A DNA stretch of 64,000 nucleotides, taken from Bacteroidota bacterium (lineage in GTDB: Bacteria > Bacteroidota > Ignavibacteria > Tepidaquicellales > Tepidaquicellaceae). The DNA is taken from assembly GCA_018266845.1 (NCBI GenBank), contig JAFDZO010000023.1, positions 1 through 64,000 of the forward strand, written 5' to 3'. Position numbers and translations under genes: made by a program. The notes beneath the pieces were generated by a model that was not told the origin of the DNA, searched no databases, and worked only from the letters and a program-made list of their open reading frames with translations. This document shows positions 31,781-60,350 of this stretch, piece by piece (the stretch's first letter is position 1; each line of letters opens with the position of its first letter).

Positions 31781-32578
31781 TTATTCATTATTTTCTAATT
31801 TTGGAGTAAGAAATATATATTTCGTTTTTTCGTATTCTAAAAGGTTGATAAATATATTGTAGTATTGTTCTGCTTTTTCAAACTCATTCTTTATCGAATG
31901 ACAGATTACTAACCCATAATAGGCATCTATTATAAAAGAATCTATTTTTAATGTCTGATGTAAGTCAGAAATGACTTTCTCAATATCATTCATTTTAAAA
32001 AATACGGCTGCTCGGCATAAGTATATTACTGCATTTGATGGATTTAATTCAAGCGCTTTAGAAAAACATGCGAAGGTCTCATTGTAGGATTTATTTTTAA
32101 AGTGCATCAAAGCTTTTTGAATATATGCATTTTCTAAATTTTTAAAATCAATTTTATCTATATTGTGATTTTCAATTAAAAATTGAATAATAATAGAAAA
32201 AAACTCTATATTATGATTTTTTCTTTTTGTTACCCCTTTTATCTGAATATCTAAATCTTTTAAATACATACAATAATTAGATGATAAATTGTATTTTTTA
32301 CTATGAAAACCAATCGCATCGTTTCCCCAAGAAACTTTCTGTTTAAAAATCAAATACAACTTCATTAATTCAATTAATTTTATTCTATACAGTACTATTA
32401 AGCAAATAATTAAAACTATTAGAATTAAGAATACATAATTATTATTTATTAAAAAATAACCAGTGACAATTAGAAGATTTCCAAAAATTATCGACAAAAA
32501 AATTAAAAATTCCTTAAAATAATTTTTGTAGGATTTCCTAATAGATAGAATTTCAAATATGTTTTCAGAATAACTCAT
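31781..32578 (-). CDS. membrane-anchored TPR protein
   Basis: 265 residues. Two membrane helices at about 26-45 and 48-66, a basic region, then two or three TPR-like repeats (A-L-M-H-F-K-N-K-S-Y-N-E-T-F-A-C-F-S-K-A-L; VIYLCRAAVFFKMNDIEKVI). Very AT-rich codon use. It is downstream of a 99-residue membrane protein gene (13-base gap), suggesting a pair. No known partner. Confidence 0.7.
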   Translation of the reverse strand: MSYSENIFEILSIRKSYKNYFKEFLIFLSIIFGNLLIVTGYFLINNNYVFLILIVLIICLIVLYRIKLIELMKLYLIFKQKVSWGNDAIGFHSKKYNLSSNYCMYLKDLDIQIKGVTKRKNHNIEFFSIIIQFLIENHNIDKIDFKNLENAYIQKALMHFKNKSYNETFACFSKALELNPSNAVIYLCRAAVFFKMNDIEKVISDLHQTLKIDSFIIDAYYGLVICHSIKNEFEKAEQYYNIFINLLEYEKTKYIFLTPKLENNE

Positions 32579-57215: not shown

Positions 57216-58076
57216 TTATTTTTTATCGGAGTAATCGTAAAACCCTTTGCCTGATTTTCTTCCTAAGTAACCTGCAGCAACCATTTTTATAAGCAGGGGA
57301 CATGGACGGTATTTTGAATCTCCTAATCCTTTATGCAGAACTTCCATAATTGAAAGGCATACATCAAGCCCGATGAAATCTGCAAGTGTAAGCGGTCCCA
57401 TAGGGTGATTCATTCCGAGCTTCATTACTGTATCAATGGATTCAGGTGTAGCAACACCTTCCATAACGCAATACATTGCTTCGTTCAGCATTGGGATTAA
57501 AACTCTGTTAGATACAAATCCCGGATAGTCATTCACTTCAACAGGAACTTTCTCAATTTTTTCTGATAGAGTTTTTATAATTGAATACGTTTCATCCGAT
57601 GTTGCAAGTCCGCGGATAACTTCAATGAGTTTCATCAGCGGAACAGGATTCATAAAGTGCATTCCGATGACTTTATCTGCTCTTTTTGTACAGGCAGCAA
57701 TTTCTGTTATAGAAATTGATGAAGTATTTGAAGCAAGAATTGTATCAGGTCTGCAGCACTCATCAAGAGTAGAAAAAATTGATTTCTTGATTTCAAATTT
57801 TTCAGAAGCTGCTTCTACAACTAAGTCAGCATCTTTAGCATCGGTAAGATTTACTGATGCTTTAATGTTTCCTAAAGTAGAATTTTTTTGTTCTTCTGTA
57901 ATCGTTCCTTTCTTAACCATACGGTCAAGATTTTTTCCAATCGTTGCAATGCCCTTATCTACAAATTCCTGCTTTATGTCTATGAATGTTACTGAATATC
58001 CAAATTGCGCAAATGTGTGAGCAATTCCGTTGCCCATTGTACCCGCGCCTACTACTGCTATGTTTTTAATTTCCAT
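57216..58076 (-). CDS. hbd: 3-hydroxyacyl(butyryl)-CoA dehydrogenase
   Basis: 286 residues. NAD-binding [11 protein letters not shown] near the N-terminus, [23 protein letters not shown] and F-V-S-N-R-V-L match 3-hydroxybutyryl-CoA dehydrogenases (also PaaH-like). Acts in beta-oxidation or butanoate metabolism. A HEPN cassette separates it from the thiolase. Confidence 0.94.
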
Positions 58077-58096
58077 TTATTATTTTAGTTATAAAA

Positions 58097-58687
58097 TTAC
58101 CAATTATCTATATGGCTAAATTTAGTTATAAGATTTGTTGAATACATATGAGCATCTTTAGGTGAATAATTTCTTCCGAAATTGGGATCCCAAAATCTAC
58201 CGTGTGCGACCCAGTTTCTAAAATTAAACATTCCTTTTACATACCCAACATCATGAACTAATCCTGTTTGAACTGTTTTCCATATATCAACAACTTCATC
58301 TATATTTAAATAACGCATAAAATTCTCTTCTGAACATCTATAACGATTGATAATTTTTCTTTTTAATTCTTTATATTGGTCTGTAATATTATTTGAAATA
58401 GATTTTTTTAATTTTAAATTAAAATCTTCTTTAATTTTTCCTTCAGTTGCAGCAATAATATTAAATGTGGTCAGAATCTCAATTTGAAAAATTAAATTGT
58501 AAAAATAATTTTCAAACTCTTCAGAAGTCATATATTTTAAGGAAGTAAATTTCGGATCAGATAGTAAAGTTTGATTTCGTTTTAATTCTTTTTTTAAATT
58601 AAAAATTCCTTCAATAGTTATTCTATACCAATCCCAAATTAAATTTATATTTAATACTTCTTTTTTATGATTAACTTTTATACTCAC
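58097..58687 (-). CDS. HEPN-domain protein with R-N-x-x-x-H motif
   Basis: 196 residues, all-helical in appearance. Near residue 160 it has N-F-R-N-W-V-A-H-G-R-F-W, containing the R-x4-H motif (R-N-x-x-x-H form) of HEPN ribonucleases. Start GTG overlaps the upstream gene's TGA (GTGA), so expression is coupled. AT-rich with A/T-ending codons compared with the metabolic genes on either side. HEPN proteins are common in toxin-antitoxin, abortive-infection and CRISPR systems; toxicity here is inferred. Confidence 0.75.
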   Translation of the reverse strand: MSIKVNHKKEVLNINLIWDWYRITIEGIFNLKKELKRNQTLLSDPKFTSLKYMTSEEFENYFYNLIFQIEILTTFNIIAATEGKIKEDFNLKLKKSISNNITDQYKELKRKIINRYRCSEENFMRYLNIDEVVDIWKTVQTGLVHDVGYVKGMFNFRNWVAHGRFWDPNFGRNYSPKDAHMYSTNLITKFSHIDNW

Positions 58688-59163
58688 TTAATTAATGCCA
58701 AAAAATATTTATAAAATGAAGTTTTAGTTAATTTTGTTTCTACATTCTTATTATAATAATCAGTTATTTCCCATGTATTCCAATTTTTTAGTATTAAAAG
58801 CAATTTTGTATTAGGTCCAATTAAATCTATTCTACCAACTGCACCAATTATATTGGTACCAACTGGGATAAAGTTTATCTTATCAAACCCTACCGAAACT
58901 GTCATTTTTTCAGTGTGATATTCACCAATAAAATCTTCATTTATTATAATTGGATAACGCTCAATTCTTATTTTGCTTTTTTGTGTTGATAATGGCTCTA
59001 ACCATTTCAATACATTACTATATAAATGAGTTATTGCATTTGTCCAATTTGTTTTACGTTCTTCTATACCACCTAATTTTCTCTCAAAATCTGAACTTTC
59101 TAAACTCTTTTTTAGAATAATGTTTTCAAGTTGTTCTTTTAGAGGATTTTTTAAAGGTTTCAT
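58684..59163 (-). CDS. unknown partner of the HEPN protein
   Basis: 159 residues from ATG 59163; the in-frame extension upstream overlaps the thiolase end. An N-terminal helical part (LKNPLKEQLENIILKKSL; DFERKLGGIEERKTNWTNAI) is followed by beta-rich sequence (SKIRIERYPIIINEDFIGEY; IGAVGRIDLIG; LLLILKNWNTW). No family recognised. Four-base overlap with the HEPN gene points to a functional pair, possibly antitoxin or sensor and effector. AT-rich like its partner. Confidence 0.65.
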   Translation of the reverse strand: MKPLKNPLKEQLENIILKKSLESSDFERKLGGIEERKTNWTNAITHLYSNVLKWLEPLSTQKSKIRIERYPIIINEDFIGEYHTEKMTVSVGFDKINFIPVGTNIIGAVGRIDLIGPNTKLLLILKNWNTWEITDYYNKNVETKLTKTSFYKYFLALIK

Positions 59164-59174
59164 AACTTTTAAAT

Positions 59175-60350
59175 TTAAATTTTCTCCACCATCATTGCGC
59201 TTGCTTCGCCGCCGCCGATACATAATGTTGCAAGACCTCTCTTTGCATTTCTGTTTTTCATCGCATGAACAAGTGTTGTTAAAATTCTCGCTCCGCTTGC
59301 TCCGATAGGATGACCAATTGCAACTGCGCCGCCGTTAACGTTTACTTTGCTTGTATCAAGTCCTGCAATCTGATTTACTGCGCATGCCTGTACTGCGAAC
59401 GCTTCATTTGCTTCTACTAAATCTAAATCATTAACAGTAAGGTTTACTTTCTTCAGTAAATTCTGAATTGCATAAGCAGGCGCAGTTGTAAATTTCTCAG
59501 GCGACTGAGCAAATGAAATTTGACCTACAATTTTGGCAAGGGGAGTAATACCTAACTCTTTTGCTTTATCTGCTGACATAATCACAACTGCTGCTGCGCC
59601 ATCGTTAATGCTTGATGCGTTGAATGCAGTAATAGTCCCGTCTTTTTCAAATGATGGTTTCAACTTTCTTCCTTTCTCAGCATTGCCTTTTCTAATATCT
59701 TCATCTTCACTGATTGTAATTGTTCCCTTTTTATCTGTAATTTCTACAGGAACGATTTCATCTTTGAACGCCCCGCTCTCTGTTGCTGCTAAAGCTCTTT
59801 TATAACTTTCTTCAGCAAAATCATCTTGCATTTCTCTGGTAATATTCATTTCTCTGCTGCACATTTCTGCGGCATTACCCATATGGAAATTATTATAAAC
59901 ATCCCAGAGACCGTCTTTAATCATTCCGTCAATTACCTTTCCGTCCCCCATTCTGTATCCGTTTCTGGCTTTATCTAGATAGTAGGGAACATTGCTCATT
60001 GATTCCATTCCGCCCGCAACAACTACATCAGCATCGCCGCACTGAATTGCCTGCGCGCCAAGCATCACTGCTTTCAATCCTGAACCGCAAACTTTACCAA
60101 TTGTCAAACATGGTACTGAGTTTGGCAGACCTGCAAATATCGCAGCTTGTCTCGCAGGAGCCTGTCCGAGTCCTGCTGTAAGTACACATCCCATTATCAC
60201 TTCAGATACATCTTCAGGTTTTATTCCTGCTCTGTTAATTGCTTCTTTAATTGCTATCGCGCCAAGCTGCGGAGCAGTTTTTGAAGATAAGCCTCCGTTA
60301 AAACTTCCTACAGGTGTTCTCACCGCTGATACTATAACTACTTCTTTCAT
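59175..60350 (-). CDS. acetyl-CoA C-acetyltransferase (thiolase)
   Basis: 391 residues. Active-site Cys in I-G-K-V-C-G-S-G-L-K, second block N-V-N-G-G-A-V-A-I-G-H-P-I-G and third L-C-I-G-G-G-E-A-S-A-M. Degradative/biosynthetic thiolase converting two acetyl-CoA to acetoacetyl-CoA and back. With hbd and the dehydrogenase it forms a short-chain beta-oxidation or butanoate set; an enoyl-CoA hydratase is not in this window. Confidence 0.95.
   Translation of the reverse strand: MKEVVIVSAVRTPVGSFNGGLSSKTAPQLGAIAIKEAINRAGIKPEDVSEVIMGCVLTAGLGQAPARQAAIFAGLPNSVPCLTIGKVCGSGLKAVMLGAQAIQCGDADVVVAGGMESMSNVPYYLDKARNGYRMGDGKVIDGMIKDGLWDVYNNFHMGNAAEMCSREMNITREMQDDFAEESYKRALAATESGAFKDEIVPVEITDKKGTITISEDEDIRKGNAEKGRKLKPSFEKDGTITAFNASSINDGAAAVVIMSADKAKELGITPLAKIVGQISFAQSPEKFTTAPAYAIQNLLKKVNLTVNDLDLVEANEAFAVQACAVNQIAGLDTSKVNVNGGAVAIGHPIGASGARILTTLVHAMKNRNAKRGLATLCIGGGEASAMMVEKI

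Follow-up and report, generated by a model that had tools for sequence, protein, structure and literature searches.

The two genes at positions 58,097–59,163 on the minus strand of the window, the whole 64,000-nucleotide stretch analysed, are best read as a mobile two-gene HEPN module in which the upstream gene, A, restrains a predicted ribonuclease encoded by the downstream gene, B, until loss of A or a trigger frees B, and we give this reading a probability of about 0.65. The pair is a probable toxin or abortive-infection system, in which A may restrain B, sense the trigger or do both, and it likely serves for self-defence or protection against phages. Both proteins are homologous to a widespread family of paired genes that keeps its catalytic residues and rides on plasmids and phages, and the window copy sits inserted between two genes of a metabolic operon.

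Gene A (58,684–59,163) is the 5′ member of the cassette and encodes 159 residues from an ATG start, while gene B (58,097–58,687) encodes a 196-residue protein of predicted HEPN fold and putative RNase function from a GTG start. The TGA stop of A and the GTG start of B overlap in the tetranucleotide GTGA (58,684–58,687), an arrangement that likely provides translational coupling. An 11-nt junction (59,164–59,174) lies between the stop of the thiolase gene (59,175–60,350) and A, and a 20-nt junction (58,077–58,096) lies between B and hbd (57,216–58,076); both flanking genes are on the same strand and belong to the host operon, outside the module. The sequence-only reading had described these two open reading frames, their lengths, the GTGA overlap, an RNWVAH motif, the 11- and 20-nt gaps and the thiolase–hbd position, and each is present as it described them, on the minus strand. 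An alternative in-frame start of A at 59,223 would give 179 residues, but would run into the thiolase gene.

The cassette has a GC content of 24.7% (A 25.8%, B 24.0%), compared with 41.8% in thiolase and 37.0% in both hbd and the window, and third-position GC is 14–15% in the cassette genes versus 27–34% in their operon neighbours. Profiles built from outside relatives, with the window left out, each return a single match in the host genome, namely window A (E = 7e-27) and window B (E = 5.5e-15). Moreover, leave-one-out testing gives 99 and 57 bits for the window proteins, whereas the best of 200 shuffles reaches 5 and 12 bits, so that A and B are more than chance open reading frames. A scan for promoters and terminators gives values close to those of shuffles. 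Elsewhere in the window, positions 31,781–32,578 encode a 265-residue protein with TPR-like repeats and apparent membrane helices; its gene lies where the window is most AT-rich, at about 23% GC, and may be a further acquisition.

Comparison of 30 hbd loci, the window's own among them, reveals that the order tpi–thiolase–hbd–acyl-CoA dehydrogenase is largely conserved in relatives, with mostly short gaps. In G001, a congeneric sister species, thiolase and hbd are separated by a 40-nt gap without the cassette, and the flanking proteins are 94–98% identical to those of the window (thiolase 98%, hbd 95%). This cassette-free gap argues for insertion, and the window genome most probably acquired the two genes together, in a single piece of about 1.07 kb; the earlier proposal of an insertion into a metabolic operon thus stands, with an empty site in the sister species and conserved flanks on both sides. 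An assembly error is ruled out because both flanks match the sister species. Inspection of the cassette edges reveals neither a target-site duplication nor any integrase or transposase. In the same gap, two order-level relatives have single open reading frames unrelated to the cassette (L059:895-1485 and L068:1027-1476), encoding a 196-residue signal-peptide-like protein and a 149-residue membrane protein, which suggests that the junction tolerates inserts.

Motifs, family evidence and predicted fold together place B in the HEPN superfamily. Across 16 aligned members, only E82, R157, W159, A161 and H162 are invariant, and all five fall within the HEPN motifs Ex3[KR] and Rx4H (here RxWxAH), the acidic motif and the Rx4-6H motif being those described by Anantharaman et al. 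(PMC3710099). Specifically, the catalytic motif RNWVAH spans residues 157–162 (58,202–58,219, minus strand) with R157 and H162 at its ends, and the polar position after the arginine is occupied by N, H or D in 16 of 16 members. The second motif, EGKIK (E82–K86; 58,430–58,444, minus strand), conforms to Ex3K, and its glutamate is invariant in the 16 members. The AlphaFold2 model of B is an all-helical bundle of HEPN type with a pLDDT of 74.8, a moderate confidence obtained from a 7-sequence alignment. In VIA-align comparison with solved structures, rows 1–9 are HEPN proteins, counting among them structural-genomics entries that we take to be HEPN proteins, and the first unrelated row appears at Z 5.9. 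HepT is the best match (Z 8.2, 3.7 Å, 121 residues), and further rows include HI0074 (Z 7.9), YutE (7.0) and Csm6 (6.3). As VIA Z values near 8 may arise by chance for helical bundles, the motif and family evidence carry the weight. The RNWVAH motif, the Ex3K motif and the predicted fold all agree with the HEPN identity first suggested for the 196-residue protein, and B is probably an RNA-cutting HEPN ribonuclease, as its conserved residues and model would predict; RNase activity in the HEPN superfamily is metal-independent.

At the level of database families, B is strongly divergent. Window B reaches no cut-off in Pfam, PADLOC, NCBIfam or PHROGs and has no sequence match in the PDB. Its closest sequence family is HEPN_RiboL-PSP (PF18735), to which window B itself gives no match; Pfam HEPN matches among its relatives are weak (PF18735, E about 2e-4 to 5e-4, one divergent relative), and none of seven genomes or records passes the curated cut-off (20.4 versus 28.4 bits). 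Tentative Pfam matches of single proteins to DUF3913, SWIRM and DUF6089 lie below cut-off and were dropped. Single-sequence searches with B of genome contigs, viral contigs, plasmids and phages return no relative, an outcome attributable to this divergence, and Foldseek finds no significant match for the model of either protein. Window B shares 13–22% identity with other family members, a divergence that would fit a decaying or neutral cargo that no longer functions; this is improbable for the window copy, in which both frames are intact and the GTGA coupling, the catalytic residues and the signature of A are all retained.

The 159-residue partner has no family in Pfam, NCBIfam, PADLOC or PHROGs and no sequence match in the PDB, in keeping with the initial view that it belongs to no nameable family. 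Its model (pLDDT 86, 12-sequence alignment) contains a long helix at residues 7–58, seven strands and a C-terminal helix, the part beyond the long helix being an alpha/beta sandwich. A nearly invariant signature, P-x-G-T-x2-I-G-x2-G-R-x-D-x2-G, is represented in the window by PVGTNIIGAVGRIDLIGP at residues 100–117 (58,813–58,866, minus strand), and the core as a whole shows 13 invariant columns in 12 sequences, against five in 16 for B. The best solved match of the model is CyaY (4jpd; Z 9.6, rmsd 3.0, 101 residues), yeast frataxin reaches Z 7.7, and domains of Med17 (Mediator) and CapZ come next at 6–8. Profile–profile comparison of A with three frataxins (hhalign) gives a probability of 2.2% and leaves frataxin homology unsupported. 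The likeness to frataxin/CyaY is accordingly one of predicted fold only, and A may yet adopt another fold; it differs from these proteins in its lack of profile support, its genomic context, an extra strand and the long N-terminal helix.

Members of the A family give no Pfam nucleotidyltransferase match, the G-S and D-x-D motifs are absent by inspection, and neither a DNA-binding domain nor any other hallmark of antitoxins is present in A. A possible role of A as an antitoxin is therefore argued from gene order and pairing.

The family was found with A as query and then with profiles of A and B. A single-sequence search with A yields matches in genomes of the same phylum and in plasmids of Klebsiella, Rhizobium, Burkholderia and others, and directly downstream of most of these relatives lies a gene of 173–195 residues carrying R-[HND]-W-[LVI]-A-H. 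The phylum contributes four further genomes with A followed by B (G161, G234, G332 and G297), and the same order is found in 18 Klebsiella/Raoultella plasmid records, in one Burkholderia plasmid (of Burkholderia glumae) and in all 11 uncut phage contigs from IMG/VR; a further B (L106) lies so near the end of its contig that an A before it would fall outside the sequence. In a sample of 395 genomes of the phylum, strong A and strong B matches fall in the same five genomes (5/5), the remaining listed matches being weak (E >0.001) and left out of the count. Every B whose upstream side can be checked has A immediately before it. Among 16 pairs A always comes first, with overlaps of 4, 8, 14 or 17 nt in 13 and gaps of 2–4 nt in the other three. 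Additionally, the distance matrices of the A and B proteins correlate at r = 0.84, a value reached in 0 of 5000 permutations, and this correlation shows co-inheritance, not binding. A chance pairing is rejected by this correlation together with the counts of co-occurrence, and leave-one-out tests support each family member, the weakest being the Burkholderia B. Thus the profile searches define A and B as one co-occurring family, and the neighbourhood survey places homologues outside this operon, with both genes together on phages, plasmids and other chromosomes, against the operon-bound pattern that the sequence-only reading had named as refuting it. Searches with the Klebsiella pair are negative in two collections: tblastn with its A finds no homologue in the phage collection, and blastn with the pair finds none in complete E. 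coli genomes.

Several loci depart from the standard arrangement. On a Methylobacterium plasmid (L028:2950-3551), A is followed by an ATGA-overlapping open reading frame of 55 residues with a transposase-like frame beyond it; an insertion sequence has probably disrupted this pair. Two related phage contigs (L029:5461-5985 versus L031:5461-5985) differ in A by dN 0.05 and dS 0.34 and in B by dN 0.25 and dS 1.39, a contrast which suggests that the HEPN gene has been exchanged, or evolves fast, beside a constant partner. Plasmids of Rhizobium and Aneurinibacillus carry A-like genes with no HEPN gene following them (L025:4902-5417 and L027:3920-4384), and A may consequently act by itself or with a different partner.

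The company and positions of the pair match those of defence and addiction modules. The GC content of the pair is below that of its surroundings in 15 of 15 outside backgrounds. The Klebsiella plasmids carry it as one among several cargos of a ColE1-type backbone, and it is missing from plasmids whose replication regions are about 97% identical, so that the cargo is swappable; the pair-bearing small plasmids measure 3.7–4.7 kb. In phage contigs its position varies, being beside a repressor-like gene (L079), by baseplate genes (L032), 3′ of an endolysin gene (L031) or 5′ of an HNH gene (L034). In three genomes of one genus, MqsR, MqsA or ParE genes lie near the pair. In Burkholderia, a gene for an AbiTii protein (PF18864, 3e-42; L026:4066-4989) precedes the pair by 17 nt and may form a three-gene version with it. 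The many copies in phage contigs could also be taken for a counter-defence or host-takeover pair, whose HEPN protein would cut host RNA for the benefit of the phage or plasmid. Repressor-side or late-gene positions, tiny plasmids and toxin–antitoxin or Abi neighbours look instead like cargo that serves its carrier, and the window pair sits alone in a chromosomal operon, which makes a takeover function very improbable.

The preferred reading, restraint of B by A, can be outlined as follows. A would be translated first and coupled to B through the overlapping stop and start, and would bind B and keep it inactive. Loss of A, or an encounter of A with a trigger, would free B; the trigger would most likely be a phage product, as the pair frequently rides on prophages. 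Freed B would cut cellular RNA and stop growth, and this arrest would protect the host population of the element or retain the element in the cell. Type II toxin–antitoxin systems share with this pair a small operon of two coupled genes, read in the same direction and borne on mobile elements; in such systems the toxin is toxic by itself and its partner neutralises it by binding.

The main rival to restraint by A is a sensor–effector defence in which A reads a phage or nucleotide signal and turns on a B that is harmless alone. Such an arrangement would suit the globular fold of A and its more strongly conserved core, the existence of solo A genes, and the precedent of Tha, a prophage HEPN RNase activated by the tail protein of an incoming phage (PMC11087260). 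The coupled upstream A that accompanies each intact B fits a B that is dangerous alone, although an activator would look identical, and the sensor–effector arrangement is judged rather unlikely, if well ahead of decay or takeover.

HepT/MntA and Tha offer the nearest functional models by analogy, one for each of these two readings, and membership in neither is claimed. HEPN/MNT likewise comprises two genes with a small HEPN protein bearing RX4-6H, its HepT is the top structural match of B, and HepT is an RNase silenced by MntA (PMC7641770). In contrast to MntA, A is not an MNT nucleotidyltransferase, since a long helix and a frataxin-like sandwich are predicted and G-S/D-x-D is lacking. Tha of S. 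aureus is also a prophage-carried anti-phage HEPN RNase with an Rx4H-type motif, R-N-S-I-M-H (PMC11087260), but it is a protein of 301 residues with its own N-terminal part, whereas the effector here has 173–196 residues and a separate upstream partner. RnlA/RnlB, AbiF, AbiJ and AbiU2 are phage-defence HEPN RNases, some with a partner gene (PMC3710099); the present pair differs in having no convincing PADLOC match and no fusion or partner of those types. PADLOC 2023 assigns the window proteins to no described system and gives weak, scattered matches only for B relatives. No name for A or for the pair appears in the searched libraries or in the full-text literature covered, which includes few preprints or subscription papers. 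The pair is provisionally set apart as undescribed; an E. coli pangenome screen has six HEPN-like systems (PMC9519451).

A bolder and more tentative possibility, somewhat doubtful as it stands, is that A founds a new class of HEPN regulators: with a frataxin fold, it would control the HEPN RNase by sensing a ligand of phage or metabolic origin or by modifying B chemically, and the pair would be an undescribed anti-phage system spread across Bacteroidota and Pseudomonadota hosts, prophages and ColE1-type plasmids. Two-gene HEPN systems are a known kind, and it is the partner type that is new here, an unusual protein of predicted frataxin-like fold whose pair is found on 3.7–4.7-kb plasmids and on phages. 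Because the pair is small, its toxicity, neutralisation and phage defence are directly testable in E. coli. Bacterial immunity has a main effector in HEPN RNases, and a new partner type would mean a new way of holding or triggering them.
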